Shown here: one piece after another, positions 1 to 17,490 of the stretch | How positions within the stretch are numbered: position 1 is the first letter of the stretch | Layout: each line of letters begins with the position of its first letter | Source: Kiritimatiellia bacterium | GTDB lineage: Bacteria > Verrucomicrobiota > Kiritimatiellia > RZYC01 | Length of the DNA: 60,024 bases | Assembly: GCA_028708815.1 (NCBI GenBank) | Contig: JAQVYB010000005.1 | Coordinates: 1 to 60,024 of the forward strand | Direction: 5' to 3' | Position numbers and translations under genes: made by a program | Notes under the pieces: generated by a model | The model's database searches: none | Told to the model about the DNA's origin: nothing | The model's input: only the letters and a program-made list of their open reading frames with translations

Positions 1-1577
1 AAACGCAAGAAAAAGAGTGGATTGCCGATCAAATATCGCTTCCAAAGACGACGCGGTTCGTAATAAAGGCGTCCCAGCCATTCGAATCCATAATTGGTCA
101 TCCACGCCGGCGGACGCTTGAGTTTGCCCGCCATATAATCCAGGCAGGCGCCACCCGGCAGGGCGATTCGCGCATTAATGTCGTTCCAGTTTTCCTTCAA
201 CCAGGACTCCTGAAGCGGCATCCCGAAGGAGGTGAGCAGAACATCAGGCTTGCACTGGTTAATCTGGGCAACAACCGATTGATTATCCTCCGAATCCCTG
301 TGTTTATCAAAGAAGCCGTTGTGGCAACCCCGCACATTCAACGCCGGAAACAGCGTCACCAATTGGTCCCGGGCCTTTTCAGCAACTCCCTCTTCGCCCC
401 CGAGAAAAAAGAGGGAAAATCCCTGCTCCGCGCAGAACTCGCAAAAGCGCGGGAACCAATCCGCATAGGTGATCTTCTGCGGTATGCCCAGGCCGGCCAC
501 ACGGGCTGCCAGCATCACCCCGTGCCCGTCGCAAAAAACATATTCCGACCTATTCAAAAACTCGCGAAACCACGACTGCTCCCACGCAATATTCATGGCA
601 TAAGCGTTCACGTTGGCCACAACGGCCTTGTGTTGATTTCGTATAACGTCCGCAATCGTATCGTGGAGCGACATGAGGGTGAACGCATTGATATTCACCC
701 CCATGAGCGAGATTCGTTCTGTTTCGCCATTTCGTGCCAAAACCACCGGAGATTCCTCCGGGACCTCCTCTCGAAATACCGCGGCCCTTCCAAATCGATC
801 CCGGACCATGTTCCATATGAACAAGGGATTGCCGATCAGATACCGGCGCCACATCCGGCGGGGCTCAATAAGCAGACGATGTATCCACTGAATGCCCGCA
901 CGACGCATCCATACCGGGGCTTCCTTTAACATCCCCCCGTAAAACATAACGGTTCCGCCGCCAATGTGCCAAACAAGTGCCCGCTGGCAAATTCCTGCGG
1001 CCATCCGGGCGATCCGTTCCGATTTTGGACTGCCCATGCCCAGCAATATCATGTCGACATCGCCGTGCTCACGCAGGCAGGCTTCATATTCCGCATCCGT
1101 GCCATATCCGGTCAGCCAGCGTTCGACATGGCAGTGGGGAGACACTTCGTTTATGGCTGCGGCGGCTTTTTCTGCGACATCCGCATCGCCGCCAATCAGA
1201 AGACAGCGGGTTTGCGGCATGTCCGGATTCTGCAGAAAGGCACGAAAGGCCTCCGTGAGGTTACACCGTTCCCTCATGCGGTATCCAAAGAGATTGGCAG
1301 CCCACACGATGCTCATGCCATCGGCAACAATGCAATCGGAAGCCGACAGCAACCCGCGAAAGTTCTCATCCCTCACCGCCATGTTGTATAAATGAGCATT
1401 TACAAAATTCAGAATTCGCGGCTTGCGTTCCGGGTCGCGCAATTGCTCGCCGACCCACTGGATGTACTCCTCTATGCCAAACAGAGACAGGGAGATGGGC
1501 CCCAATTGCATGACTTTGGAAGGAGGCAATGCGCTCATGCGTATTTTTCCGTCTGGTCCGTTCTCAAGCCTGATCAC
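1..1577 (-). CDS. Tandem two-domain WecG/TagA/CpsF glycosyltransferase (3' end beyond window)
   Basis: Reading the minus strand from 1577 to the left edge gives one uninterrupted frame of about 525 codons holding two complete WecG/TagA/CpsF domains. Domain 1 (about residues 20-262) shows VADGMSIV, LLIGGDADVAEKA, ILLGMGSPKSERIA, HIGGGTVMFYGG and the C-terminal signature EPRRMWRRYLIGNPLF. Domain 2 (about 285-525) repeats the set: FCDGHGVMLAARVAG, LFFLGGEEGVAEKA, LLTSFGMPLQESWL, ALPGGACLDYMAGKLKRPP and EPRRLWKRYLIGNPLFF. The family transfers a sugar such as ManNAc or ManNAcA from UDP-sugar to a lipid-linked intermediate at the inner membrane. The GTG at 1577 overlaps the upstream stop as GTGA; an ATG at 1538 is an alternative start. 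Codon phase was checked at three places and no stop was found. The gene probably ends a few codons left of base 1. It is last in the polysaccharide cluster. Confidence 0.9.
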   Translation of the reverse strand, partial: MIRLENGPDGKIRMSALPPSKVMQLGPISLSLFGIEEYIQWVGEQLRDPERKPRILNFVNAHLYNMAVRDENFRGLLSASDCIVADGMSIVWAANLFGYRMRERCNLTEAFRAFLQNPDMPQTRCLLIGGDADVAEKAAAAINEVSPHCHVERWLTGYGTDAEYEACLREHGDVDMILLGMGSPKSERIARMAAGICQRALVWHIGGGTVMFYGGMLKEAPVWMRRAGIQWIHRLLIEPRRMWRRYLIGNPLFIWNMVRDRFGRAAVFREEVPEESPVVLARNGETERISLMGVNINAFTLMSLHDTIADVIRNQHKAVVANVNAYAMNIAWEQSWFREFLNRSEYVFCDGHGVMLAARVAGLGIPQKITYADWFPRFCEFCAEQGFSLFFLGGEEGVAEKARDQLVTLFPALNVRGCHNGFFDKHRDSEDNQSVVAQINQCKPDVLLTSFGMPLQESWLKENWNDINARIALPGGACLDYMAGKLKRPPAWMTNYGFEWLGRLYYEPRRLWKRYLIGNPLFFLR

Positions 1578-2581
1578 GAGGTAAACGCCGCCCAACTCGC
1601 CGGCATATTCTTTTCCACCTCAATGTTTCCAAATGGTTTTCCCTGCCTCGCGCCGGCTTGCTTCACCCAGTCCGTCATGCGCGAGATTCCTTCATCAAGA
1701 GGAATATTACGAATCAACTCCGGGAATGCCTGTTGAATTTTTTCATGCGAGGAAAAGGCATGCTCCACTTCATTGCGTGCGGCCAGTAATTGTATTTCAG
1801 CGTTTACCCCCATCGATCGCTGCACCGTCCCGGCCAGTTCGAGCACGGAATACGGCTGATCTGCCCCAATGTTGAACACCTGATTATAGGCATCCCGATT
1901 TTTTACGCACTGCGCGATAATCGGGGCGACATCATCAATGTGACTGAACGCTCTCGTTTGCTGTCCATCGCCAAAAACAGTCAGCGGCTTTTCCTGCAAA
2001 ATCTGATTCATAAATATGCCGATGACATTGCGATAGGGATCCCCGATATTCTGCCGCTCACCATAAACGTTGTGCGGACGGAAAACGATGTAATCCATCC
2101 CGAACATTTCATGCGTCTCTTTCAGGTCCAATTCCACCGCATATTTTGAAATGCCGTAAGGATCCTCGGGCTGCGGAACCATCTCTTCCGACATGGGAAC
2201 CTGTCCGGCCCCATACACCGCGATCGACGAGGTGAATACAAAACATTTCACACATCCCGCATTCACCGAGGCGTTGATCAGGTTGATGCTGCCAATCAGA
2301 TTGTTCGTGTAGTTAAACCGTTTAATAAAATGGCTCAACCCCTCCGCCGCATAAGCCGCCAGGTGGTAGACATAGTCCGGACGATGCTCCGCGAAGATTC
2401 GATTAATCCGTTTTTCATCCGTTACGCTCCCTTCAATGAATTCAGCGCTTTGATTAACATTCTCCCGGAAACCGCCGGAAAGATCATCCAAAGCCACAAC
2501 CGAATGTCCCATGCGAATCAATTCATCCACCACATGTGAACCGATAAACCCTGCCGCACCCGTAACCAGTGATTTTACCAC
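1574..2581 (-). CDS. NAD-dependent sugar epimerase/dehydratase (extended SDR)
   Basis: This 335-aa extended short-chain dehydrogenase resembles UDP-glucose 4-epimerase-type enzymes. It has the N-terminal Rossmann motif GAAGFIGSH, a TSSIAVYG catalytic serine region and the YGISK tyrosine-lysine pair. The C-terminal part has FGDGQQTRAFSHIDDV, common in nucleotide-sugar epimerases. The start is GTG at 2581, preceded by a good GGAG ribosome site. It probably supplies an epimerised UDP-hexose to the neighbouring glycosyltransferases. The exact substrate cannot be read from sequence. Its stop overlaps the start of the tandem WecG gene by 4 nt, which indicates translational coupling. Confidence 0.88.
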   Translation of the reverse strand: MVKSLVTGAAGFIGSHVVDELIRMGHSVVALDDLSGGFRENVNQSAEFIEGSVTDEKRINRIFAEHRPDYVYHLAAYAAEGLSHFIKRFNYTNNLIGSINLINASVNAGCVKCFVFTSSIAVYGAGQVPMSEEMVPQPEDPYGISKYAVELDLKETHEMFGMDYIVFRPHNVYGERQNIGDPYRNVIGIFMNQILQEKPLTVFGDGQQTRAFSHIDDVAPIIAQCVKNRDAYNQVFNIGADQPYSVLELAGTVQRSMGVNAEIQLLAARNEVEHAFSSHEKIQQAFPELIRNIPLDEGISRMTDWVKQAGARQGKPFGNIEVEKNMPASWAAFTS

Positions 2582-2594
2582 AACAATCTCCTTT

Positions 2595-3641
2595 CTATCT
2601 TGAAGAACACGATACAGAGTTATTATCTGTATCTACCTGCATTTTGCTTGAGTCGTGATTAATCCGACTGTTTTTCTTGAATCTTATATATTCCCCAAAG
2701 CCCATCATTAAGGATTCGGCCTTCAGATGGCTCTTTCTGGAGATCGTGCCAAACAACTTTTTTCGTTCGGAAATAGCCCATGGCAGGTAACGGAGAAAAG
2801 CTATCTTTGCTCTAATAAAAACACCCGGGCGTCCCTGCTTAATCAACTCATAAAACGCAAGCCCCTCCGATATAAGATGTAACAAACCATAGCGGAGAAT
2901 ATGTTTCCCCGTCGTATTAATCCAAAAAAAGAATTCAATATTTCTGCGAAGGTGAAAAACGTGGAATTTGCTCTTTCGTTTACCTGTGGCAGAGCCAATA
3001 TGCCAGCCTATGGCATCAGAAGCATAGGCCACATTATACCCGAATGCCCGCAGTCGAAATGCCAGATCATTATCTTCATAATAAGCAAAATACTCGTCAT
3101 GAAAAAGAAATTTTAGCTTATCCAGGGCGGACTTTTTATACAATGCCGCACTTGCTGCTGCAGCATATGGAATATGGGTGGCATGATTGAACGTTTGGGC
3201 ATCGCATCCATAAAAGGTATCTGCCGAACCGTTGAAAAACATCGCGAAACCGACGCTATCTAGCAAATGCGGTGCGTTTGCCTGCCTCAGTTGGCATGCC
3301 ACGCTGCCGATCTGAGCGGGTTGGGCCGCATGAATCATGGCACCCAGCCAGCTGGAATCCAACACAACGTCATTATTTAAAAGCACAATGAACTCCCCGC
3401 GTACCTGCTTGAGAGCAATATTGTTGGCCTCGGAAAAGCCACTGTTTCGATTCAAACGAATCACACGATATTGCGGGTCCGTATCCAGAAAAGGAATATC
3501 CAAAGAGTCATCTTTCGATCCATTATCCACCACGATTACTTCATAGTCTCGAAATGTTTGACGTTTAACAGAATCCAAGCAGGTGCGAAGCATGGCACCG
3601 CCATTATAATTCACTATGATTATACTGGCTGATGGTGTCAT
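2595..3641 (-). CDS. GT2 family glycosyltransferase
   Basis: This GT-A fold family 2 glycosyltransferase opens with SIIIVNYNGG and shows the nucleotide-binding VVDNGS motif, an LLNNDV (DxD-like) metal site, and a YYEDNDLAFRLRAFG acceptor-side motif typical of rhamnosyltransferase-like GT2 enzymes. It likely adds one sugar to the lipid-linked repeat on the cytoplasmic face. I choose the ATG at 3641 because it forms an ATGA overlap with the stop of the upstream gene. An in-frame ATG at 3656 would add five residues. Composition is AT-richer than the flanking housekeeping-type genes. Confidence 0.87.
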   Translation of the reverse strand: MTPSASIIIVNYNGGAMLRTCLDSVKRQTFRDYEVIVVDNGSKDDSLDIPFLDTDPQYRVIRLNRNSGFSEANNIALKQVRGEFIVLLNNDVVLDSSWLGAMIHAAQPAQIGSVACQLRQANAPHLLDSVGFAMFFNGSADTFYGCDAQTFNHATHIPYAAAASAALYKKSALDKLKFLFHDEYFAYYEDNDLAFRLRAFGYNVAYASDAIGWHIGSATGKRKSKFHVFHLRRNIEFFFWINTTGKHILRYGLLHLISEGLAFYELIKQGRPGVFIRAKIAFLRYLPWAISERKKLFGTISRKSHLKAESLMMGFGEYIRFKKNSRINHDSSKMQVDTDNNSVSCSSR

Positions 3642-4807
3642 GTCGCCCCATGGCAAATAATATTAACGAATGCGTTGCCATAAGCTGCCGCATCATAAAT
3701 GCCGGCAAACTGGCGCGCTTTATCGGTATTAAACGAAACCCCCTGCGAAATACAGGATTCCAAAGCATCTTTTATGGTTATGTGATCCAATGCATCCACA
3801 ACCTGCCCTAGTTGATAGTGTTTAACCGTATAACCTATCCATCCCATATTTACGGCCAACACTGGTGTTGCTGTAGATGCCGCCTGAGTCAGCACCCCAC
3901 TGCAGCCAACGTGTATCGGCGAGTAAAGGAGCAACACAACATCAGAATTCGCAAGCAAATCTTCAACCGCTTGATTGCTTATAAATTCATCGTACCACTC
4001 AATGGAGGTATCATTTATCGAGTCCATACATTCACGAATAACGGCTGCATCCCGCTCAAGTATTCGTCCCTTAATCTGCAGCCTTGCCCGGGTTTTAAGC
4101 TCGAGGTCCAGCGCCGCCCATGCCTGAAGTATACTTGATGCACTTTTTGCTTCAGAAATAACCCCATATAAGGTGAAGCGTATAAACGGAGATTTTGTTT
4201 TGGAACGAAGCGAACAAAAAACACCGGGTATTGAAAGGCGCTCTGCCTTAATATGCCTGCGCCGGCACCAATCAACAGCGCCTGCATCCTCAAATATAAA
4301 ACCATTGATAAGTCGCATGCGGTAAAACAAGATGGCAATATAATTTTTAACAAGCGGACGAAAATAGGCTGCACCTTTATACAAATGCATTGGATAATTC
4401 TGTTCCTTATAGCACATAATAGGTCGAAAGATTATGTATAACAATTCACTTCTATGCGCAAACATACGAATTAGCGGAGCAAAGACTACGTGAATATCTC
4501 CCTCCAGTAAGAGAATTCGGCTGTATCGGGCTGACAGCAGCTCTCTGACAAGGTAGAGTGTGACGATAAATCTACTATGCCATGAAGTAATATTATGAAG
4601 GGTTGGAAACTTCTTCAAAGTCAGGACCGGATTGTGCGGTCTACAAGCCGCTTCGATTTGTTCTGCGACTCTTTCCGACACAAGTATCGTGATTTGCCAA
4701 CCTCCTCTATGACAAAGCGCTCTCAAAGCCGCTGAATTCAGAAGCAAAAGCAGACTATTCACGCTGTGACCATACGAAAAGCACTCAAAAAGAAGAATTC
4801 GCTTCAT
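3638..4807 (-). CDS. GT-B glycosyltransferase-like protein, polysaccharide cluster
   Basis: The protein is 389 aa with an N-terminal Rossmann half (MKRILLFECF, then a long helical linker) and a C-terminal half with LANSDVVLLLYSP and CSGVLTQAASTATPVLA. The latter matches the nucleotide-sugar-binding half of GT4-like GT-B enzymes. The canonical EX7E glutamates are not obvious, so it belongs to a divergent branch. It sits between the flippase and the GT2 gene, with a 4-nt overlap to the GT2, and likely builds the repeat unit. Assignment to glycosyl transfer rests on C-terminal pattern and neighbours. Confidence 0.65.
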   Translation of the reverse strand: MKRILLFECFSYGHSVNSLLLLLNSAALRALCHRGGWQITILVSERVAEQIEAACRPHNPVLTLKKFPTLHNITSWHSRFIVTLYLVRELLSARYSRILLLEGDIHVVFAPLIRMFAHRSELLYIIFRPIMCYKEQNYPMHLYKGAAYFRPLVKNYIAILFYRMRLINGFIFEDAGAVDWCRRRHIKAERLSIPGVFCSLRSKTKSPFIRFTLYGVISEAKSASSILQAWAALDLELKTRARLQIKGRILERDAAVIRECMDSINDTSIEWYDEFISNQAVEDLLANSDVVLLLYSPIHVGCSGVLTQAASTATPVLAVNMGWIGYTVKHYQLGQVVDALDHITIKDALESCISQGVSFNTDKARQFAGIYDAAAYGNAFVNIICHGAT

Positions 4808-4956
4808 ATTCTAACAGACGTCCATAATTGTTCTCGATGCCCTGCTATTGTACAAGCAAGCGACAGGAGCATATCCATGCCGCCATTGATCGATAATCAT
4901 ATTTAACTTCCATAATGTCTGCATATCTAATTAAATTCCGAATTTATAATTATGTA
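4808..4956. other. AT-rich gap between flippase and GT-B gene
   Basis: This short gap of about 150 bases is strongly AT-rich and holds no convincing coding sequence. It could carry a promoter for the genes to its left on the minus strand, since it is one of the few real gaps in the cluster. I see no clear -35/-10 pair. Confidence 0.4.
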
Positions 4957-6447
4957 TTAATTAGATGGTGTTTCTTTTTCGAGAACATGCATCTTAGTCT
5001 TAGTCACTTTAATTATGATCACAAACCAGCACAGAACCAGCATAACCAAACCAGATAAACCACAAAGCAAAAACCGCGCAAGAAGAGGTAAGCCAAGTCT
5101 GCGCACATAACCCAGCAGCAAAATCGTTCCCAACATCCATGGAAGAGGTCGCAGAATAATATATAATTCATCCCTTAATTTGATCGAGGAGCTGCGGGAA
5201 AGCGCGATTACCGAAAAGAACCACGAGAGAATCCTTGCCACAACCACTCCGAAAACCATACCCGTCAAGCTCCAATACAACCCTATCACCACACCCGTAA
5301 CCTGCAGAATGGCACAAACTAAATTCTGATGGAATACACGATTCACCCGGCCAATCGCCTTCAAAACAACCACATGAACCTGGAATAACAATTGAAGTGC
5401 GCTCATAACGCAGCCGGCCTGAAACAAGAAAGTGGCTGGAAGCCAGTTTGCACCTATTAAAACCTCAATGACCACTGGCGCACTGACCGCTAGCGCACTC
5501 ATTCCCACAAGTAGAAGCGAAATGAAAACAGTCATATGATTCATATAGGTCTCTCTCAACAAAACGGGATCTTTTTGTAGCCTGGATATAATGGTGAAAT
5601 TTGTTCTGAAAAATATGTTTTGCAAAAATACACATACATTGTTTGGAATAAAGCAGCCTCGATCTAAAAAACCTAATTGTGTTAAGCTCACAAATTTGGC
5701 CGTGAAAACATTTATGACTTGCTCGGCCCCGCTTCGAATGGTTTGAGACGTCATCACCGGAATTCCGAATGAATACAAATCTTTGATATTCTCCCAACGG
5801 GGCACTTTCCCGGGACGCCATGGCAGAAGAATCCAGAGCGTTAGCGCCTGTACGATGGAGCTAACCAACTGCTGGCCCAAAATCGCCCAAACACCACCAC
5901 CAAACAACGCCAAAACAATGCCTGTTATACTGCCTGCCATAACCGATCCCGCACTGATCAATGCATTCGTTTTAAATCGTAATTCGCGAATAAGCTGACA
6001 CTGCTGAACCTTTCCGGAAGTCATAAAAAAGGTAACGATGGACATTACAACCACAACCTTTTTCAATTCAGAATTCCCGTAGAAGGATGAGATTACGCCT
6101 GAACTCAGCACCAAGGATCCACAACAGATTACAGACACGACACCATTGCACCAAAAAAGAGCCGTATAATCATCGTCATGAATATTATTCTTCTGGATTA
6201 TGCGCGATCCGATTCCTCCATCAATCAGGTTTTGCGCCATCGTCAAAAATATCATCACAGAAGCAACGATCCCGAATGTCTCGGGGGGCAACAGCCGGGC
6301 AAGCAACAAACTCACCACCATTCGCAGCCCTTGCTGCGAAAATTGCTCCACACCACACCAAAACCAGCCTGAGTATGCCTGTGATACAGAAGACACGCCC
6401 GCTGTACTGCCGAATTTATTCATAAAATATCGCGATAGATACGCCAT
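4957..6447 (-). CDS. wzx: Wzx/WzxC-type oligosaccharide flippase (MOP superfamily)
   Basis: The product is an integral membrane protein of about 496 aa with roughly 12-14 hydrophobic helices along its whole length. Near the N-terminus are the PST/WzxC hallmarks ARLLPPETFGIVA and IDGGIGSRIIQ. It would flip the undecaprenyl-linked repeat unit across the inner membrane. I choose the ATG at 6447 (MAYLSRY), preceded by AAGGAAGA; a TTG at 6465 would add six residues. Placement among GTs, a methyltransferase and a Wzy-like polymerase supports a Wzx/Wzy-dependent pathway. Confidence 0.9.
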   Translation of the reverse strand: MAYLSRYFMNKFGSTAGVSSVSQAYSGWFWCGVEQFSQQGLRMVVSLLLARLLPPETFGIVASVMIFLTMAQNLIDGGIGSRIIQKNNIHDDDYTALFWCNGVVSVICCGSLVLSSGVISSFYGNSELKKVVVVMSIVTFFMTSGKVQQCQLIRELRFKTNALISAGSVMAGSITGIVLALFGGGVWAILGQQLVSSIVQALTLWILLPWRPGKVPRWENIKDLYSFGIPVMTSQTIRSGAEQVINVFTAKFVSLTQLGFLDRGCFIPNNVCVFLQNIFFRTNFTIISRLQKDPVLLRETYMNHMTVFISLLLVGMSALAVSAPVVIEVLIGANWLPATFLFQAGCVMSALQLLFQVHVVVLKAIGRVNRVFHQNLVCAILQVTGVVIGLYWSLTGMVFGVVVARILSWFFSVIALSRSSSIKLRDELYIILRPLPWMLGTILLLGYVRRLGLPLLARFLLCGLSGLVMLVLCWFVIIIKVTKTKMHVLEKETPSN

Positions 6448-6519
6448 GCCGATCTCTTCCTTCAATCATAAGTATTCCTTTAAGATGAGAGAATCGCGGC
6501 CACGTCAAATGTTCATCTG

Positions 6520-7548
6520 TCATGCGAGCAGGACTTTTTGATAGATATTCAAGTACTCTCTTCCCACATCCCGCCAATCACTCACAGGGAATGTTTGAGT
6601 CCCAGGAAGGCGTTGCGACTTTTCATAGAAACTTCTCAATCGATCTGGAGCATCAGGCCGAAGCACATCGGCATGATTAAGCCGTGGACAATGCGGATAG
6701 GACCGGCGCGCCCACGGCTTATCAGACAGAAGCAAAGGCAAGCCCGCTGCTGCCGCCTCGTATACAGCAATACAACCACTCTCATATTCACTGCAAAGCA
6801 CAAACCCGCGCGCCCCTGCCATCCATTTTATTTTTTCCTCTTCCGTAACGAATCCTGCATAACGGACAATGACCCCATCTACTTCTTTCATAAATGCATC
6901 AAAGTATGGGTCTTCTTTGGCGTAGGGTTTTCCGGCAAAAACAACCGGCACACCCGCCTTCCGCGCCGAGCGGGCCAGTTCCAGATTGTTCTTGCGAGGA
7001 TGTATTGTGGCTAACGAAAACAAATAATCATCCTGCCTGTGTTCCTGAGCCAATGCTTTCAGCGAATCACCTGTCAATCCGTGGGGAACCACATAGCAAC
7101 GGGCTGCAGGAACATTGAATAAATAACGTGCGACATCTCCTTCGTGAGCAACAATTGTAACATAGGCATCCACCATTCGGTACACATCCCATCCAAGCCG
7201 CTCAACAAAACCTTTGAAACCCTTTTGCAAAGCTGTAATCAATACCCTTTGAGCCATGAGCGCCATACGGGAACGTGATGCGGTAGAATCCAGGATGTCC
7301 GTAAAAACAACCTTGTACCCCTTTTCGCGAGCAAGACGCACATTCAAAGCAGGCGGGCGACCAAAATAGTGAATTACATCTGCACGAAGCTGTGACTCCC
7401 ACCATCTATCTGACACCACGTTCACATTCAGCTCTCTTAATGCTTTCGCTAGTGCTTCAATCATGTTTTGACATCCTCCATGCGCCAAATAAAACGGCAG
7501 AGAATGCGAAAAGATTACAGAAATTGGATTGGATAATATTTTATTCAT
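6520..7548 (-). CDS. GT4 family glycosyltransferase
   Basis: This is a GT-B glycosyltransferase of about 342 aa. It has a glycine-rich N-terminal acceptor loop (YLAHGGCQN), a central LATIHPRKNN, and the C-terminal donor motif CSEYESGCIAVYEAAAAGLPLLL, matching the EX7E region of GT4 enzymes. I prefer the ATG at 7548 (MNKILSNP), which leaves a short gap after the methyltransferase. A start at 7608 would overlap that gene by 38 nt and add an odd hydrophobic leader. It likely acts on the lipid-linked glycan in the cytoplasm. Confidence 0.88.
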   Translation of the reverse strand: MNKILSNPISVIFSHSLPFYLAHGGCQNMIEALAKALRELNVNVVSDRWWESQLRADVIHYFGRPPALNVRLAREKGYKVVFTDILDSTASRSRMALMAQRVLITALQKGFKGFVERLGWDVYRMVDAYVTIVAHEGDVARYLFNVPAARCYVVPHGLTGDSLKALAQEHRQDDYLFSLATIHPRKNNLELARSARKAGVPVVFAGKPYAKEDPYFDAFMKEVDGVIVRYAGFVTEEEKIKWMAGARGFVLCSEYESGCIAVYEAAAAGLPLLLSDKPWARRSYPHCPRLNHADVLRPDAPDRLRSFYEKSQRLPGTQTFPVSDWRDVGREYLNIYQKVLLA

Positions 7549-7570
7549 CTGTGATCGCTTACATGAATTG

Positions 7571-8434
7571 TCATGTCCGATGAACAAGAAAACAAAGCAT
7601 ATGACCATAATACTTCAGAGGCAGAATGCGTTGAAGCATGCGACCCAGAAGATTTAGCCGAACACAACAACATTTATCATCCCAATGAGCAGCCATACGG
7701 CCAAAATTATGCAGAATGCCTTCATCTGCAAAAGAAACAAACTCCCGCTCAATTGAAAAGCCCGCCTCTTTCAAAAAGCCGCGCATCTGTATCAGATTGA
7801 ATTCATACTGAAAAAAACCCCACCCGGCTTCAGAACAGAAATATTGCGGGAACCAGTCAGAACGACAACCTTTCTTCGCCTCGAATAGTGACGTTCCATC
7901 TGCTCCCTGTTTATGCAGCCAATGGCGTATAAACGGCAATGATTTCATCCAAAGCAGCGGGCTACTCAGCCTACGAATCAGTCGGCGTAACACACCACCA
8001 TATGGTACCGTAATAATTGCAACGCCTTCTGCTTTTAGAACACGATTGAATTCCTTCAATGCACGTAGCGGCCCTTCCGGCACATGCTCTATGGATCCCA
8101 AGGCCACCACAGAACCAAATGAATGATCCGGGAACGGCATATCCTGGATATCACCACTGACGAACGTCACTCCATCTATTTCATTCCTTGCCCGCGCGCA
8201 CAGCGCTTCGCTCCAATCAAGCCCCACAGACTCCCATCCCTGTTTCCGAAACCAGGCGCACCAGCGTCCAGAGCCGCATCCGGCCTCCAGAATGGGCTGG
8301 TGATTCTGCAATTGCTCCATGAATAACGGTGCTATTGCATAATGATCGCAATGTGTAATCTGCCGTTGAAGTGGTATTCCAAGAAAATCCTCTTCAAAAC
8401 GTTTGCTAATTTCTTTGTCTGATCGTCTGTCCAT
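7571..8434 (-). CDS. Class I SAM-dependent methyltransferase
   Basis: The product is a methyltransferase of about 287 aa with the SAM-binding motif I LEAGCGSGRW, an acidic loop at VGLDWS, motif II SGDIQDMPF and the post-motif GSIEHVPEGPL found in Methyltransf_11 enzymes. The ATG at 8434 is preferred; a start at 8491 would add 19 residues with no clear benefit. In a polysaccharide cluster it could methylate a sugar or a phosphonate/phosphate substituent, but no acceptor is identifiable. The decayed IS lies just upstream, so its original promoter context may have changed. Confidence 0.85.
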   Translation of the reverse strand: MDRRSDKEISKRFEEDFLGIPLQRQITHCDHYAIAPLFMEQLQNHQPILEAGCGSGRWCAWFRKQGWESVGLDWSEALCARARNEIDGVTFVSGDIQDMPFPDHSFGSVVALGSIEHVPEGPLRALKEFNRVLKAEGVAIITVPYGGVLRRLIRRLSSPLLWMKSLPFIRHWLHKQGADGTSLFEAKKGCRSDWFPQYFCSEAGWGFFQYEFNLIQMRGFLKEAGFSIEREFVSFADEGILHNFGRMAAHWDDKCCCVRLNLLGRMLQRILPLKYYGHMLCFLVHRT

Positions 8435-8509
8435 AGCACCACTCTTTATGCTGGCAATTTGTCGGACTTTAGGATGCCTTATACTCAACAAGAATAGTCA
8501 TCAATCGGT

Positions 8510-9872
8510 TGTGTGACCTTTCCTCATGATTCCGACAAATTGTTTATTGCGAACAACCGTTCGCAACAGGGGGTTGCATGATGTTTTTGATAATACTTGT
8601 CGAATGGGGTTCCCGATTTCTGCGATTCCAGCGCCTGTTTCAGGTTGAACAGGTGTTTCATGTTATAGCTCAGAATGACCAGGTCCCATTCACCCTGTAC
8701 GGCTTGAAGCCCACGCAATGAAAACCGTGCAAACCCCATGACGGATTTGATTATGCCAAAGACCGGTTCAACGGTTTGTTTTCGCAACTTATACAATTCT
8801 CGTCCGTGCATTGACTCAAAACGTTTCTGCATAACTTCCTGCGCCGTCGCATCCGGCCCAGTCAGATCGGGATCTCTTAACGCTTTTTCAAGGTCTTCAA
8901 TACTCTTGTGATGACGTTGTTTTCCAACTGCGGCATAGTCCGTGACATCACACTCTTTTTCCGTTTCGCGAACCGCTTCTTCCGAGTAAAAGCCGCTGTC
9001 AGCCAGCACGTTTTCCGCAGAATAATCAGTTCCTCCGGGAATACTCTTTAATGTTGGTAACAGTTGTTCTTTATCATTCGGCGCATTGGTAACCGTCTTG
9101 CCAACAATGAGCATTGATTCCGTATCAACAACTGCCTGAGCATTACAGGCCTGTTCAAAGTGTTTGCCGTTTCCTGTCTTCATAATCCTGCTCTCGGGAT
9201 CCGTGAAGTTGACCTGTTTCTTTGGCGGTGGCTCAGATTGGTCTGCAGATCGGGAAGTCTTCCCTTTTTTCTTTTTCTGCTGCTCTTCTTTGTGCCGTTC
9301 TAAAATCATTTCACGCGCTTTCCGGAGGTGTTTAATCCGTTCTTCACGCCTTGAAATTTCTGCCGGGATATCCAGGCCGATGGGCAGGTCCTCGCGGTCG
9401 GCCCGTTCTGCTTTTTCGATCAATTGATCCACTTCTTTACGTAACATTTCAAGCTGCTCTCCGGCACGCTTTGAAGGCCCTGGTGTTCTTTTTCCTAAAG
9501 GTGCAGATGGTATCGTGGTCAGGATGTGTGTTGCCGCAGACATTGCGGACAGCAACATCACTATAGGTGGCTTCCTCAATACGGCGGGAGGAAAAACGGC
9601 CTGTGATGTAGCTGTAAATTAATAGCGAAAACATCAGGAATGGCGGGTACTGCTGCGACCCGCTGCCTTTCCAGTTTAAATGATACACGTGAAGAGGAAG
9701 ATGACTCACGGCTTCCAGCAGGAAATGAACAATATGATTATTCGGTATCCAGTCACGTAAATCCGGCGGAAGAAGCATGGGGGTGTCCCGGTCAACTGTC
9801 TTTAAACGCAAAGCCATATAATATCCTTTTGTTCATTGCTATGCCCTTAGTATAAAGGCCTGTCACAAAAAT
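8510..9872 (-). mobile_element. Degenerate IS1182-family insertion sequence
   Basis: The element contains the remains of an IS1182-type transposase gene. Its ends are only approximate. Reading inward, the left side begins TGTGACCTTT near 8512 and the right side (reverse complement) TGTGACAGGCCTTT near 9867. These share TGTGAC and CTTT but differ by three bases, so the terminal inverted repeats are degraded or misplaced. No target duplication is evident. It lies between the methyltransferase and a GT4 gene and does not interrupt either. Confidence 0.65.
8524..9817 (-). pseudogene. IS1182-type transposase, frameshifted with internal deletion
   Basis: The N-terminal DUF772-like part (9449-9817) reads normally to HPDHDTICTFRKKNTRAF. 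The rest of the DDE domain continues in the +1 frame (from about 9500 down to 8524), with VLADSGFYSEEAV as the second aspartate region and RKQTVEPVFGIIKSVMGF as the glutamate region. The join runs straight from TFRKKNTRAF into SKRAGEQLEML. In intact relatives a segment of some 40 residues lies here, including the first catalytic aspartate (DGT motif). Thus an internal deletion with a frameshift removed an active-site residue and the element should not transpose by itself. Confidence 0.8.
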
Positions 9873-9900
9873 TCAAACACAACAGCGAATTCGCTGTTGT
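9865..9900 (-). terminator. Perfect 22-bp palindrome after GT4 stop, likely terminator
   Basis: Bases 9879-9900 form a perfect palindrome (arms ACAACAGCGAA and its complement). As RNA on the minus strand this gives a 9-bp stem with an AATT loop, followed by GTTTGAATTTTT. It begins at the TAA stop of the GT4 gene. It is likely an intrinsic terminator, though the U-run is a few bases away from the stem. Confidence 0.5.
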
Positions 9901-11078
9901 TAGCTAGCAGGATGACGGGCCAAAGCCCGACAGCCTGCTAGTTTATTATAAAGCCCTTGATATTGCGACAACACGACTCCTGGATCACACAAGGAGAGTG
10001 CAAATTTACGTCCTTCCCTCAGCAAATTGTCATCACGTGCATTGTCATACGCCTCTTTTAGTGCCGCCGCCATACTCTGTGGAGAATGGCCGTTTGCCAT
10101 TATGCCATACTTCCCGTTGTTTGAACAATATGCGCATCCTCTTGCCTGTCGAGTAAACACGACAGGGACATTTAATAAAAGCGCCTCACAAACCGGCATT
10201 CCAAATGATTCTTCCAGCGACGAGTGAAAATATATTTTGGCATCCTGAATCTTACGAAGACACTCGCCTTGTGGCAAATTGCCCAGGAATATCACACCAT
10301 CAAGAAGATTTTTGGAGCGCGCCCACTCATAGGCGGGGCCACCATGTTCTAAACCAGGCCCCATTAAATGATATGCAAATTCTGGATGATCGTTCAAAAA
10401 CAGACGAAACGCTTTCAAAGCATTTTTTACATTTTTCAACCGACTCCAACTTAATGCACTGCAGATTACAGATTCTGACGCCCTGCCGCGATCCCGAGAT
10501 GAAATTTTCAACAAATCTGATTTCACGCAATTTGGTATCGACACAGCCTTCCGCCCCGAAATTCGGGCAACAAAAGAAGCAACATATGGTGACACTGCGG
10601 ATAACAGCGTGGCTTTCCGCATGGTATATAGCGCAATCAGAAAATTTATAAAATAGGATAACGGAAAATGAATCAAAATGCGTGCAGCATGATCGTGCGC
10701 AGTTAACAGAAACGGCTGGCCGAAACGAATTGCACCCAAGGCATATTCACAAGTCCAATTAACATGAATCACATCGGGTACTGCCTCAAAAAGTACCTGC
10801 TCAAGCAGCATCGTTTCCTCTCGGTATAAATCTCTGCACATACCCCCCAAGCGACGCCGAACCGTCCAAATTCGAAGCAACCCGCCGTCCCATCTTTCTA
10901 TTGGAGCCGTCTGGTTTGGTATTAATGTAATAACATCTGTTTCCATTTGTCGTGATATTCGCTCGTAAACATAGTTTGTCACATTATATCCCCCCATCCC
11001 AGAGGGCAATGTTTCCCCGGAGGAAACGAGCATTTTCAAGGCCATAAGATCGACCGGCGACAGAATGGCTACACGCAT
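9900..11078 (-). CDS. GT4 family glycosyltransferase
   Basis: This GT-B enzyme of about 392 aa has an N-terminal SGMGGYNVTNYV acceptor/diphosphate loop, VPDVIHVNW, AHDHAARIL and a C-terminal FHSSLEESFGMPVCEALLLNVPVV, a clear EX7E donor-binding motif. The ATG at 11078 shares one base with the upstream TGA (TGATG) and is preferred over an ATG at 11117 inside the upstream gene. It likely adds a sugar to the glycan that carries the phosphonate, since it is coupled to the TagB/F-like transferase. Confidence 0.9.
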   Translation of the reverse strand: MRVAILSPVDLMALKMLVSSGETLPSGMGGYNVTNYVYERISRQMETDVITLIPNQTAPIERWDGGLLRIWTVRRRLGGMCRDLYREETMLLEQVLFEAVPDVIHVNWTCEYALGAIRFGQPFLLTAHDHAARILIHFPLSYFINFLIALYTMRKATLLSAVSPYVASFVARISGRKAVSIPNCVKSDLLKISSRDRGRASESVICSALSWSRLKNVKNALKAFRLFLNDHPEFAYHLMGPGLEHGGPAYEWARSKNLLDGVIFLGNLPQGECLRKIQDAKIYFHSSLEESFGMPVCEALLLNVPVVFTRQARGCAYCSNNGKYGIMANGHSPQSMAAALKEAYDNARDDNLLREGRKFALSLCDPGVVLSQYQGLYNKLAGCRALARHPAS

Positions 11079-12304
11079 CACAAATCCTCTGACCCACGGG
11101 TCTGTAGTATTTCCCATATTCTTTCCGAAGCCCCACCCATGGGATAAGCATGGAATATATCTCGTACAAATGCGCGCTTCTCCCGATACATCGTCTCTTC
11201 AAAGCCACCAAGCAGGTCATCAAGAACATCAATCAACTCATCGCCGGTTTTAAGTATCGGGCCGGGAATTATTTTTTCATAGTCATAGAGAAATCCCCGC
11301 TGATTATTATAGCTTGCGATATCATGGGCAAAACTAACAATCGGCCTGTTAAGCAACAGATAATCCACCCAAATGCCAGAATAGTCTGATATTAAAACGG
11401 CACTGTTTCGAAGCAGCACGAGTGTATCTATGATTGTATCCCGACTTAGCTCTACGATTTCGTCGTCGTATGCGATTCCTGCATAGGCTGTTTTACCGAT
11501 ATGCGGACGAATGCCAATGACTGCATTGTGCTCTTTTAAAACAGAACGAAGCTTCCTTCTTTCGTCCATTGAAAACGCATAAACGCCCTTTAAACTCTCT
11601 TCTGTATTTTCGTGATTCCCCCTGAAAGTCGGCGCATAGAGAACAAGTCGGCGCCCTCGCAATATGGCAAGCAGCACCTGTTCCTGTTCCTTTTGCTTTT
11701 CAGATAAAACGGCAGTAGTTGTCAAGCAATCATTCCGAGGATAGCCCGTACAGAGAACGCTCTGATAATCCACGCCAAAAGCAAGTGACATCATCGCCCG
11801 ATCAACGGGGGATGAACTAATATAACGGAAATATCCAAACGCTTTAGAAAACGATTTTTTCTCTATATCGCCACATGTCAAACCAATGCGTTTTATAGGG
11901 ATGCCATGCCAAAGATTCAAAAAAAGGTGTCGGTGCGTTGCCAGGCGCGCCCAGTACCACTCCCCTGCGCCCTGTTCGACTACAATGCTTGCACTTCGAA
12001 GCAACCGCCATATGCCTCGAAAACTCCTTGCTTTCACCATGTTGCCTCTGTGAGCATCCTCGACCAATCTCATATCCGAATTCACGCCATAAAGAATGGA
12101 AACCAGAACCGGCTGTTTCTCGCAAAGCCAGTCATGAAACGCCTTAATATTGCCACTGAAAAGATAACAATCCCCCACAATAAAAAGCCATGTTTTATCC
12201 CTTTTTGGAATAATGCTGTCAGCAATCCAAATGATCAGTGCTTTTGCTTTTCGAAATATGATTTTTATATTTCCAGTAGATTTCATATCAGAATGAACCA
12301 TCAT
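11078..12304 (-). CDS. CDP-glycerol glycerophosphotransferase-like (TagB/TagF family) enzyme
   Basis: The 408-aa protein belongs to the Glyphos_transf family (PF04464). Seen motifs are FLNLWHGIPIKRIG (about residue 131), VLYAPTFRG, IRPHIGK and LISDYSGIWVDYLLLNRPIV. Members move a phospho-alcohol from a CDP-alcohol to a polymer, as in teichoic acid synthesis. No CDP-glycerol synthase (TagD) stands alone here. Instead a TagD-like cytidylyltransferase is fused to PEP mutase in the same cluster. I infer the donor to be a CMP-activated phosphonate such as CMP-2-hydroxyethylphosphonate, which mimics CDP-glycerol. Cytoplasmic, membrane-associated action is expected. A conventional phosphoglycerol substrate cannot be excluded. 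Confidence 0.85.
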   Translation of the reverse strand: MMVHSDMKSTGNIKIIFRKAKALIIWIADSIIPKRDKTWLFIVGDCYLFSGNIKAFHDWLCEKQPVLVSILYGVNSDMRLVEDAHRGNMVKARSFRGIWRLLRSASIVVEQGAGEWYWARLATHRHLFLNLWHGIPIKRIGLTCGDIEKKSFSKAFGYFRYISSSPVDRAMMSLAFGVDYQSVLCTGYPRNDCLTTTAVLSEKQKEQEQVLLAILRGRRLVLYAPTFRGNHENTEESLKGVYAFSMDERRKLRSVLKEHNAVIGIRPHIGKTAYAGIAYDDEIVELSRDTIIDTLVLLRNSAVLISDYSGIWVDYLLLNRPIVSFAHDIASYNNQRGFLYDYEKIIPGPILKTGDELIDVLDDLLGGFEETMYREKRAFVRDIFHAYPMGGASERIWEILQTRGSEDL

Positions 12305-12403
12305 TTTTGCTCATTACACAGTGCAAATTTTCTCGCAGCAAATCAGTACGAGTCAACGAAAACAAACCCTATTATTCAAGCTCATCCTTCTGATTCCGCT
12401 AAA

Positions 12404-12432
12404 CGCCGACACTTTTTAACAGGTGTTAGGCG
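12404..12432 (-). terminator. Hairpin in gap after wzy-like gene
   Basis: A stem forms between CGCCGACAC (12404-12412) and GGTGTTAGGCG (12422-12432), with an internal bulge. It lies a few bases after the polymerase stop on the minus strand. It lacks a strong T-run, so it may be an attenuator or mRNA-end stabiliser instead of a full terminator. Confidence 0.3.
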
Positions 12433-12437
12433 TATCC

Positions 12438-13937
12438 TTAGAAGATGTTTTTTTCAAAATATCGTTGATCACATACTATCAATGCATTTAATAAGGCCAA
12501 TTGGAAAATCAAATCACAATAAACCCATTGAATCCCCCCCAGATAAGTCATAAATTGAGTCAGGCTGACGACATAGTATACGGTAAGAGCAAGGTGATAT
12601 CTCTTAAGATTCTCGTTATTCCATTGTATTTTTTGACGTTTTATATGGCGGATTGACTCACCAATCCACCAGACAATCGAAAAACACAATCCTGGAGCAC
12701 CCAAAAATATCAGCAAGTCCAAAAGGCCTTGATGCATATGCCCGCCCACAAATGTTCCGTATACGTCACCCCACAGCGAAGGAAATCTCATTGCAGATTG
12801 CCTAATCGTCAAAACCAAATCTGGATTATATCCAAATCCACGACCAACCACGAAATATCTTGGAATATTTTCGAAAGCTAACGTCCACAGATATCTTCTC
12901 CACTCCATCGTTTGAGAACCTGCGGCATATGCTACGTGAGATACTTCGATTCCAGGAATCATCGCCAGCACCCTTTGCACGCCAAAAGGCATATATGGCG
13001 CGAGAAAGATCATCAGAAGTATGATCAGCATACCTCCAGTCAGTGCAATCATGGCGGTCCTGAAGGGTTTCCGTGAATTAAGAATAGTAAATAAAAACAA
13101 GAATGCTATAACGTGGAGAAATCGATTTCTATAACCCGACAGCAATGCTGCCGCGCCTGCGAGTGTGAAAAATATACCATAATATAGATAGTGTCGCTTC
13201 GTCTTACATGGCCATAAAAACGTCGGGAACAAATATATAAGAACAACCGGATGTAAAATGGACCATCTTGTGGTAGTAATATCGTGGGTAAATGCTGTAA
13301 ATGTATCCGCTAAACCAACTCCCGGCAGAATGAACAAAAGTGGATACCATATCCTCCCTCTGCTCACTATAAAAAGAAGATTCACAACAAACGGGACAAA
13401 AATCAGCAAAAGCATAAATGAAAAGGCTATTTTCCACTGCTTTTCCGAAAGGGTTATGTAACCGGAAAACAGATATAATGAAAAAGCAATAAATATGTGA
13501 ATATATGCCCCGCCACCAGCATCCGGACTGCCAAGGAAGCTTAGCGCATGACCCCTAACAGCAATAACAAAGCAAATCCATATGATACTCAACCAGCCCA
13601 GCTTAATACATGGAGATGCCTTCACTTCTTCCTTACTGATAATCTTTTTTGCAAGAGATAGCCCAACGAATGACAGCATGAATACCTGATACAACATAAG
13701 ATTCATTGGGATATGGTAATAGTACAGTCTGCTAAAGTAGAAGGTAATAACAAGAATCGCGACTATATCAGCGCGAGAAAAAAGCATTAGCACAAAAGGG
13801 GTAATTGCAAGGATCGCCAGCAAGACATAATCTCCATGCAACTGTACAAAAAAACAAAGAAGAAGAAAGATTCCAGCTATCACAGGAACCATTAATTCTC
13901 GCGGTGCTAAATATCGCGCGGGTTTTTGTTCATCCAT
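12438..13937 (-). CDS. wzy: Wzy/O-antigen ligase-like polysaccharide polymerase
   Basis: The 499-aa polytopic membrane protein has about 10-12 hydrophobic helices and a larger periplasmic loop around residues 330-400 with VVGRGFGYNPD and GGHMHQGLLDLLIFLG. That loop resembles the Wzy_C/O-antigen ligase signature, where the histidine and asparagine-rich loop is functional. It would polymerise or ligate lipid-linked repeats in the periplasm. A strong AAGGAG site precedes the ATG at 13937. It is clearly AT-richer than the dehydrogenase gene just upstream. Confidence 0.82.
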   Translation of the reverse strand: MDEQKPARYLAPRELMVPVIAGIFLLLCFFVQLHGDYVLLAILAITPFVLMLFSRADIVAILVITFYFSRLYYYHIPMNLMLYQVFMLSFVGLSLAKKIISKEEVKASPCIKLGWLSIIWICFVIAVRGHALSFLGSPDAGGGAYIHIFIAFSLYLFSGYITLSEKQWKIAFSFMLLLIFVPFVVNLLFIVSRGRIWYPLLFILPGVGLADTFTAFTHDITTTRWSILHPVVLIYLFPTFLWPCKTKRHYLYYGIFFTLAGAAALLSGYRNRFLHVIAFLFLFTILNSRKPFRTAMIALTGGMLIILLMIFLAPYMPFGVQRVLAMIPGIEVSHVAYAAGSQTMEWRRYLWTLAFENIPRYFVVGRGFGYNPDLVLTIRQSAMRFPSLWGDVYGTFVGGHMHQGLLDLLIFLGAPGLCFSIVWWIGESIRHIKRQKIQWNNENLKRYHLALTVYYVVSLTQFMTYLGGIQWVYCDLIFQLALLNALIVCDQRYFEKNIF

Positions 13938-13997: not shown

Positions 13998-15050
13998 TTA
14001 TTTAGCCAGAGTAGATGTAAATTCATGCAGCATTTCTATGCATATGTGAACGGGATTATTGCTCAGTCGCTCCTGATTTACATTTTCTTCCAGCAACCGG
14101 AGCAATTCATTGGCAGAGAGGTCCAGTCTTCTATCCAGCCCTATTCTACACAACAGATCGCAAAGACGCGACCCTGTGACCCCCTCCACCGTCACGCCAT
14201 GTGCAGCATGGTAGGCCACAAAATGAGGAAGAAGCAGGCCCACGGCCTGTCCGTGCGGAAGACCAAAGGTCGCCGTCAGGATATACGAAAAGGCATGAGG
14301 CGCGGTGGTTTTTGAAATATTGATAGCCTGCCCTGCCAGATTCGCTGCGCGCATCATGCCGGACCTGTTCTCCGGGTTCGGCGCGTGGACGGCGGCTTCC
14401 AGATATCGCAACGCCAAATCCACCGCCTCCCGGGCATACCCGCGTGATTCATCGGTAGCACATTTGGCCCAAAGCGATTCGACACCCTGAGCCAGGGCGT
14501 CCATCCCCGTGCAGGCCGTTTGATAGCCACTCAACGAATAGGTGAATTCAGGAACCAGCAACACCTGGGATGGGATCATGGAGGGCCCATCCACCGAGTG
14601 TTTTGTTGCGCCACGATAGACCACGGCAAAGTGCGTGGCCTCGCTTCCGCTTCCCGACGTGGTGGGGATGGCCAACAACGGTGGTACGGGGACATCCGCA
14701 GGGCACGTCCCCTGAAGGAAAGCATCCAGGTTGGCGCCGGTGCAGCCAAAGAAATTGATCAGCTTGGCCGTATCCATAGCGCTCCCGCCGCCCACCGCAA
14801 TCACCGCGCGAATCCCGGCGGAACGAAGGTTCTCCACTCCCCGCATCACGTCCTCTTCTTTGGGGTTCGGTGAAAAGTCGCTGAAGTACACCGTATCGGC
14901 AGGAACTTCCCCCGACAAAAAATCCCGGACGCCCGATTGATGGAATGAATGCTCCCGGCAAACCACCAAAATCCGTCCTTCCGCCTTTTGGATGAACGCC
15001 TCCAAAAAATCTTCTGCTCCAGACGCCCCAAAATGTGTGAGTTGATTCAC
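13998..15050 (-). CDS. Iron-containing alcohol dehydrogenase, predicted phosphonoacetaldehyde reductase
   Basis: This 350-aa group III (iron-type) dehydrogenase has the NAD(P)-binding GGGSAMDTAK, the IPTTSGSGSEAT motif and the metal region TGMDALAQGVES followed by PHAFSYILTATFGLPHGQ. It stands directly after PEP mutase and phosphonopyruvate decarboxylase, the spot occupied elsewhere by PhpC-like reductases that turn phosphonoacetaldehyde into 2-hydroxyethylphosphonate. The usual DxxxH metal pair reads DALAQ here, with glutamine for the first histidine. Start is GTG at 15050 with AAGGA upstream. There is no AepZ-type aminotransferase nearby, so aminoethylphosphonate is less likely as the product. 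Confidence 0.82.
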   Translation of the reverse strand: MNQLTHFGASGAEDFLEAFIQKAEGRILVVCREHSFHQSGVRDFLSGEVPADTVYFSDFSPNPKEEDVMRGVENLRSAGIRAVIAVGGGSAMDTAKLINFFGCTGANLDAFLQGTCPADVPVPPLLAIPTTSGSGSEATHFAVVYRGATKHSVDGPSMIPSQVLLVPEFTYSLSGYQTACTGMDALAQGVESLWAKCATDESRGYAREAVDLALRYLEAAVHAPNPENRSGMMRAANLAGQAINISKTTAPHAFSYILTATFGLPHGQAVGLLLPHFVAYHAAHGVTVEGVTGSRLCDLLCRIGLDRRLDLSANELLRLLEENVNQERLSNNPVHICIEMLHEFTSTLAK

Positions 15051-15073
15051 GATCGCTGAGTTCCTTCCGGCCT

Positions 15074-16201
15074 TCAGGTGGATTGGAGAAAGTCCATAAA
15101 GGCCCTCTTATTCTGATCCGGGGTCGTTTTCGGGCGGCCCAAATCTTTTCGTGCGCCGGGTGCCACCCGGACTTCAAGAAAGCTTGGGCCCTTCTTCTGC
15201 AACTGGAGTCTGAATGCAGAGAGCAAGGCCTCTTCGCCATCCACGCATACGGCATCCACATATCCGCAGGCGAGCGCAAGCTGCACGAAATCCACATCAA
15301 ACCCCACCGTTTTCTGTGCACCCACGGAATCATGTACGCCGTTGTTCAATAACACATGATGATAATTAGGGGCCTTCAACGAGCCGATAATGGCGGGTGC
15401 GCCAAGATGCATCAGCAACGCGCCATCGCCATCGAGACATATGACCGGGCGGGTGGTCTGGTGAAGAGCAATGCCCTGGGCAATCTGCGAGGCATGGCCC
15501 ATGGAGCCGACCGTCAGAAAATCCCTTTCATGCCCTTGGCCGTTTCGCTCCCGGCATTCATACAACTCCCGCGAGAGTTGGCCCGTGGTGGAAACCAACG
15601 CCGCACACTCCGGTAAGCACGAAACCACCATCTCCAGCGCCGCCTCTCTTTTCAATGAATAACGCGCGTCAGGCGCTTTCCGCGCATACGGTTCGAACGT
15701 CCCGGCACGCACCAGCAGGGCCACCGGACGGTGCTCCGTCGTCGCCCGACGTATCATCTCCTCCAGACAGCTCGCGGCGTCCGAATTGTTGTCGGGAAGA
15801 ATACGGCAGGGAATATCCATCGCCTCAAAAAGTGCCTGCGTTACCTGGCCTTGCTTGAGGTGCTGCGGCTCATCCTTGACGCCCGGCTCGCCGCGCCAAC
15901 CCACCAACAGGAGCATCGGAATGCCATACACGTCCGGATCAGCCAACGACAGCAACGGATTCACGGCATTCCCCTGCCCCGAGTTCTGCATGTAAACCAG
16001 GGCCGGCCGGCCGGAGGCCAGATAATGACCTGCGGCCAACGCCACCGCGCCGCCCTCGTTGGCGGCGGTCACATGCCGCTCGGGCGGCACATGGTCACTC
16101 ACATACGCGCAAAACGCCTTCAGCAGCGAGTCCGGCACCCCGGTAAAAAAATTCACACCGACGCGCTCCAACATGCTGCAAAATGATTCTGTGCAGATCA
16201 T
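15074..16201 (-). CDS. ppd: Phosphonopyruvate decarboxylase (ThDP-dependent)
   Basis: The 375-aa protein decarboxylates phosphonopyruvate to phosphonoacetaldehyde, the irreversible step that pulls the unfavourable PEP mutase reaction forward. The N-terminal pyrimidine-binding half shows FTGVPDSLLKAF, AANEGGAVALAAGHYL and YMQNSGQGN. The C-terminal diphosphate half has the ThDP motif GDGALLMHLG ending at LLNNGVHDSVGAQKT. Length and domain order match Ppd/AepY. The ATG lies two bases after the PEP mutase stop, so the pair is translationally coupled. Confidence 0.93.
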   Translation of the reverse strand: MICTESFCSMLERVGVNFFTGVPDSLLKAFCAYVSDHVPPERHVTAANEGGAVALAAGHYLASGRPALVYMQNSGQGNAVNPLLSLADPDVYGIPMLLLVGWRGEPGVKDEPQHLKQGQVTQALFEAMDIPCRILPDNNSDAASCLEEMIRRATTEHRPVALLVRAGTFEPYARKAPDARYSLKREAALEMVVSCLPECAALVSTTGQLSRELYECRERNGQGHERDFLTVGSMGHASQIAQGIALHQTTRPVICLDGDGALLMHLGAPAIIGSLKAPNYHHVLLNNGVHDSVGAQKTVGFDVDFVQLALACGYVDAVCVDGEEALLSAFRLQLQKKGPSFLEVRVAPGARKDLGRPKTTPDQNKRAFMDFLQST

Positions 16202-16203
16202 GA

Positions 16204-17490
16204 CTAAATGAACTCCACAATTTCACGTATGGGCATGCACCCGGATTCCGCCTCCAGGGCTCGACCATGCGTCAGAATGGATTCGGCGGTTTTCTGCATC
16301 GCCGGATAGGCACTGCGCAAAAGCTGATTGGCATAGATCACGATATTGACTCCGTGCTTTGCAAGTTCCTCTTCCGTCACCTGGGAATAGGTGCTGGGAA
16401 CGACCACCAATGGGACCCGTCGAGGAAGCCTCCCGTAGGCGGTGCAAAACGCGATGATTTCGTCCGCTGTCGTGGATTTGCTGTGAATCATGATGCCATC
16501 GGCACCGGCTTCGATATAAGCCTGAACGCGAGCAAGCGCATCTTCCTGTCCGGCTCCTGTAATCAGGCTTTCACACCGGGCTATAATCATGAACTCTTCG
16601 GAAATCTGCGCGGCTTTCCCGGCGCGGATTTTTTCGCCCATGTTAAAGGCGCTATCCTGTTTCTGGTCGTTCCCGGCATCCAGCAGGGAGTTCTTTTTCA
16701 GGCCGACCTTGTCTTCAATGATTACAGCGGAAACACCCAGCCGCTCCAGCGTACGCACCATGAACACAAAATGCTCCGCCTGCCCGCCGCTGTCACCATC
16801 ATAAATGATGGGTTTGGTGGTCACTTCCAGTATGTCGTTCACGGTGTGCAGACGCGAGGTCAGATCGACACACTCGATGTCGGGTTTTCCCTTCAACGTG
16901 GAATCGGTCAAACTGCTAAGCCACATGGCATCAAATTCGACGGACAGATTGTCCTTTTTGACGCGGCAGTTTTCAACGATCAACCCACTCAATCCGCTGT
17001 GCGCCTCCATAACGCGAACCAGTGATTTTGCCTTCAGCAGTCGGCGCAGGCGTTGACGACGAATGTCCGGCGTGACGCCGACTTCCCGAATGGCCTTGTT
17101 GAGTTGGGTCGAGGAGATGCCCGGGGTATAGGACGGTTCGATCAGCTCGCCGCCCCATTCGGCAAGCGCATCAATCACCCGCTGACGCGTTTCGCGCTGG
17201 ACGCCATCGCGCCAATCGTCGCCATGCACCACGTAGTCGGGTTTCAGTGTGCGCAAGTTGGGCACATAATCGAGCGTTGTTTGAGGAATGACCTGCTCCA
17301 CGCCTTTCAGATTCTCCACAATGGCCGCCCGTTGCTCATAGGTCATATAGGGCAGTCGTTTATAGCTGGCAATGGCTTCATCGGTCAACACGCCCACGGT
17401 GACTTCACCATACTGCGCGGCCACTTTAAGAATATTGAGATGACCGGGATGAATGATATCCGCACTCATTCCCACATAGACTTTTTTCAT
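16204..17490 (-). CDS. pepM: Cytidylyltransferase-phosphoenolpyruvate mutase fusion
   Basis: The 428-aa protein joins two enzymes of one pathway. Residues 1-140 form a TagD/glycerol-3-phosphate-cytidylyltransferase-like domain with HPGH at 14-17 and GISSTQL around 124-130. Residues 150-428 form PEP mutase: DGDSGG (231-236) metal site, the EDKXXXXXNS signature as [10 protein letters not shown] (259-268), and ARCESLITG (304-312). PEP mutase makes the C-P bond of phosphonopyruvate; the N-terminal half would later charge the phosphonate with CMP. Such fusions are known among bacteria that attach phosphonates to surface glycans or lipids. A good AAGGAAGAG site precedes the ATG. Confidence 0.94.

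Follow-up and report, generated by a model that had tools for sequence, protein, structure and literature searches.

We find that the gene at one end of the window (the whole stretch of 60,024 nucleotides analysed here, from a Kiritimatiellia bacterium) is, as far as its sequence can be read, a fusion of two old paralogous WecG subfamilies. A single frame on the minus strand, running from 1595 to 3, spans 531 codons with zero stops and holds two matches to PF03808 (Pfam), at window positions 33-545 (183 bits) and 840-1340 (130 bits), each far over the cut-off of 27.4; the whole protein scores 306 bits (E = 6e-92). These are the only PF03808 matches in the 4.0 Mb genome, and the frame is thus its sole WecG gene. 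The initial annotation had described two complete WecG domains in one frame that is cut by the window edge, and both parts of that description hold. The features of the gene are as follows.

3..1595, minus strand: two-domain WecG open frame of 531 codons, counted from the first TTG and truncated at its 3' end where the contig stops
789..1508, minus strand: N-terminal WecG/TagA domain (N-half), residues 30-269, N-type subfamily, PKSE in place of PKQE
726..812, minus strand: interdomain linker, with low model confidence around its middle
744..759, minus strand: possible internal start, with a Shine-Dalgarno-like GGAGGA at 759-754 and, after a gap of seven bases, an in-frame GTG at 746-744
3..731, minus strand: C-terminal WecG/TagA domain (C-half), residues 289-531, with the canonical PLQE motif and complete up to the last helix, lacking only the tail beyond it

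Both halves are members of the WecG/TagA/CpsF family (PF03808, CAZy GT26) by Pfam score, fold, Asp65 and arginines 214 and 221, and the protein scores below the cut-off of each of three equivalog models: 175.6 bits for the TarA/TagA UDP-ManNAc transferase (NF041710, cut-off 350), 127.2 bits for the WecG UDP-ManNAcA transferase (NF002980, cut-off 323) and 194.6 bits for the EpsA exopolysaccharide glycosyltransferase (NF041872, cut-off 500). The candidate starts are a TTG at 1595, a GTG at 1577 and an ATG at 1538, and either of the last two may be the real one. At the other end the window stops where the contig does, which leaves out the final codons and the stop; a search of the genome's other contigs for an overlap with this edge found none that would supply them. 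Judged against the single-domain relative L048, about 12 residues and the stop should be missing.

The case for fusion rests on the ancestry of the two halves, which are only 27% identical to each other. In a maximum-likelihood tree of WecG domains (127 rows), the N-half sits in a 13-row clade with support of 100/99, and the C-half in a separate clade where the fork joining its five closest rows has support of 100/98; both clades include single-domain members from other genomes. The tandem duplication named in the initial annotation, at least a recent one, is ruled out by this low identity together with the separate, well-supported clades, whereas the fusion named beside it finds support, as the same placements argue for the joining of two paralogous lineages rather than the doubling of one.

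Relatives of the N-half are mostly single-domain proteins of ~245-346 aa, hosted by Verrucomicrobiota and by records labelled Neomarinimicrobiota, Hydrogenedentota, KSB1, Fibrobacter and Bacteroidales. The single-domain N-type proteins L047, L082 and L091-L101 (L047 and L082 ~48% identical to the N-half) share the Ser/Thr in the PKQE motif but lack a fused second WecG domain. The C-half is closest to the 257-aa L048 from the same family (genome G001), which is 65% identical over the whole length but has no N-domain and is accompanied by no other WecG gene in G001; then follow a protein in G077 at 63% and two at 48-50%. The G077 relative (L079:6780-8537) is similar only up to about residue 220, beyond which come 360 extra residues, arginine-rich and with no Pfam matches; we considered it as a further fusion and rejected it, reading the extension as a probable frameshift in the gene or the assembly. 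The exact N-type plus C-type pair was seen in 1 of the 346 genomes of the class, the window's own, where the locus lies at a contig end with the stop absent, which counts against the fusion reading. A contig scan of genomes with the whole two-domain protein as query gave no match, and an N-type alignment used as query did match.

The domain border holds evidence for a different account, namely that these are two adjacent genes, merged by an assembly or base-calling error, or that the internal GTG serves for separate translation of the C-domain, either in place of the fusion protein or in addition to it. At -9.5 kcal/mol, the GGAGGA/GTG site in the linker is the strongest in the gene, and of the window's 1249 internal in-frame starts only 11 (~1%) have a site as strong. 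Its placement exactly at the border is suggestive, and it may be an internal start of the C-domain or a relic of a once separate gene; both subfamilies do occur as single genes elsewhere, and the assembly is fragmented, with this locus at the end of one of its contigs. Set against this are the 531 codons without a stop and a codon usage that prefers one frame across the whole gene, weakly at ~1055-755, with no switch of frame. A frameshift at the junction was rejected on this unchanged preference, as judged from codon statistics, which without reads are blind to a point error. Comparable WecG-WecG fusions are also found in other genomes; in one of them, L085, from an independently assembled genome, an N-type domain is followed by a further WecG domain and the linker between them lacks a ribosome-binding site, which supports fusion here. 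We regard the two-gene account as unlikely.

The initial annotation credited each half with the full motif set, which is right for the C-half and incomplete for the N-half. Both keep the equivalents of the catalytic Asp65 of TagA and of Asn39, Glu168, Arg214 and Arg221. Of the PKQE motif (Gln167, Glu168), the PLQE of the C-half has both residues and the PKSE of the N-half has the Glu alone, like its whole subfamily; the N-half thus has Ser at the Gln167 position, and it has Met at the Asp191 position. The Thr37 position varies widely among relatives; the N-half has Phe there and the C-half has Asn. For TagA, the proposed roles are general base for Asp65, donor contact for Thr37 and stabilisation of the leaving group for Arg221 (PMC6493773). 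The two substitutions in the N-half make its activity uncertain, and they are properties of its lineage: all N-type sequences read at the Gln167 position have Ser or Thr, and none of the 13 aligned N-type sequences keeps Asp191. Most of these have also lost Arg221, which is present in the window copy.

Such losses are what one might see if the C-domain alone were catalytic and the N-domain had diverged into an inactive, acceptor-binding or regulatory part that helps membrane placement. We consider this somewhat unlikely, as all 13 N-type sequences share Asp65, Asn39, Arg83, Glu168 and Arg214, Arg221 is still there in the window copy, and most N-type members are encoded by genes that stand alone, which suggests that they have an activity themselves. 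A more specific proposal, in which a domain of the little-known Ser/Thr167 subfamily and the canonical GT26 domain of the same chain add two different sugars one after the other, and the C-domain is also made alone from an internal start, seems to us quite unlikely as stated.

An AlphaFold model built on a 13-row alignment, in which the N-type single-domain proteins are 41-48% identical to the window row (matching their level against the N-half), bears out the prospect of two folded domains in the chain as far as it was recovered. It shows two complete TagA-like folds, C-terminal helices included, with helices and strands in the same order in both halves (mean pLDDT 85.8, pTM 0.58). The best PDB matches are TagA structures, with a TM of 0.95 on the target for the best-matching domain. 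The protein thus resembles Thermoanaerobacter italicus TagA/TarA (PDB 5WB4, 5WFG, 7MPK, 7N41) in its per-domain fold, its catalytic Asp and its C-terminal appendage with conserved arginines, but differs in having two domains rather than one, in the Ser for Gln167 of the N-half and in the residues that replace Thr37, at ~28% identity. Because the linker is disordered and the pTM is 0.58, the model does not fix the placement of the domains relative to each other. The internal dimer raised in the initial annotation, a permanent TagA-like packing in which one active site is used, accordingly finds no support in the model; TagA does form dimers, but these are inactive, and it is as a membrane-bound monomer that TagA is active (PMC6493773). 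We judge this arrangement highly unlikely.

The protein is one of several in which WecG domains are fused. Members of the family had been described as normally single-domain proteins of ~240 aa, which is right for most, but two-domain members recur: two PF03808 matches fall in one frame in 4 of 57 relatives' genomes, the window's own not counted, and at least four other two-domain lines were found, of which three belong to the same class and one to Caldisericota. Among the collected loci, 12 other proteins carry two full WecG domains and fall in at least three tree lines, namely ten tandems of the RVYGPDL type (L003/L032, L033-L035, L060, L062, L065, L070, L074 and L078), L072, whose related subfamilies stand in a different order, and L112, whose record is labelled Caldisericota. 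Like the window protein, the RVYGPDL-type tandems have two full WecG domains per chain, but they use other subfamilies, mostly have a long extra N-terminal region and have a separate origin in the tree. That region, of ~230-370 residues and hydrophobic-looking, is present in L062, L065, L070, L074, L078, L033, L034 and L035, and had no Pfam match in L062, the one scanned. A fourth line is L085/L102 in G334 (record labelled Lentisphaerota), which resembles the window protein in placing an N-type domain before a second WecG domain in one frame, but its second domain is of the RVYGPDL type and not the C-type, and its 5' end is cut at a contig edge.

WecG domains are also joined to other enzymes. 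L038:5819-8440 (G039) encodes an 873-aa chain in which a WecG domain is joined to a PF00953 (WecA/TagO/MraY-type) enzyme, apparently a fusion of the enzymes for the first and second steps in lipid-linked glycan assembly. In L083 the domain is fused to a GT4. The N-type gene lies directly 3' of a GT4 gene in L093 and L095, and these GT4 proteins are distant from the fused one (28-31% identity). In L039:4694-7276, L041:2524-5124 and L045:5323-6903 a WecG domain is followed by a STAS-like domain, and in L041 it is also preceded by a GT2. Our searches of open-access papers turned up no account of tandem GT26 proteins, and protein databases may well already list the two-GT26 architecture.

The WecG fusion gene is the last of a co-directional run of polysaccharide genes.

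1574..2581, minus strand: NAD-dependent epimerase/dehydratase gene, directly upstream, overlapping the first start of the WecG frame by 22 bases
2595..13937, minus strand: rest of the co-directional polysaccharide cluster, with GT2, GT1/GT4, methyltransferase, PF04464, flippase and weak Wzy_C
4957-6465, minus strand: flippase-like Polysacc_synt gene
11078-12304, minus strand: PF04464 glycerophosphotransferase-like gene
12438-13937, minus strand: weak Wzy_C match

A relative of the upstream epimerase, 62% identical, lies close to a single N-type WecG gene in G007. The cluster also contains a DDE-type transposase gene (8524-9579, minus strand) and, at 13998-17490 on the minus strand, genes of a phosphonate route.

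13998-15050, minus strand: Fe-dependent alcohol dehydrogenase
15074-16201, minus strand: TPP decarboxylase
16204-17490, minus strand: cytidylyltransferase-PEP mutase fusion

Together with the PF04464 gene, the phosphonate-route genes suggest a CMP-activated phosphonate decoration of the glycan.

WecG and GumM, both GT26 enzymes, transfer a sugar to an undecaprenyl-diphosphate-linked acceptor. TagA, also of GT26, likewise adds a sugar to such an acceptor (PMC6493773). With known GT26 enzymes acting in this way, we read the protein as two tethered transferases that arose by fusion of two single-domain WecG/TagA genes, each adding one sugar at what are probably neighbouring steps, a reading to which we give roughly even chances. 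The fusion would have arisen inside the polysaccharide cluster from two different GT26 genes, to give a protein whose two halves fold independently, each a peripheral-membrane glycosyltransferase, and are joined by a flexible tether. Acting on an undecaprenyl-diphosphate-linked oligosaccharide, each domain would transfer one nucleotide-sugar residue, and a single chain would thereby perform two steps of repeat-unit assembly, probably neighbouring ones, ahead of Wzx/Wzy-type export. The flippase, glycosyltransferases and weak Wzy match of the cluster support a repeat-unit role of this type. In textbook order the WecA/TagO-type and WecG steps are consecutive, so the L038 chain would join consecutive steps and supports the logic of neighbouring steps; the fusions in L038, L083 and L041 and the N-type genes beside GT4 genes in L093 and L095 support the glycan-assembly reading more broadly. 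We infer the activity of both domains, the adjacency of their steps and the identity of the sugars; addition of two sugars in sequence, as the initial annotation had suggested, remains our leading reading.

The GT26 family and its fold are already known, and tandem copies recur, so a two-domain WecG is not unique. Work on WecG/TagA enzymes normally deals with single domains; in this genome and in related ones, fusions to one another and to other enzymes of glycan assembly occur repeatedly, and they may reveal which transferases act at neighbouring repeat-unit steps in uncultured bacteria. With its fixed change from Gln to Ser or Thr, the N-type subfamily is one in which a shift in GT26 chemistry or in the choice of donor can be tested.
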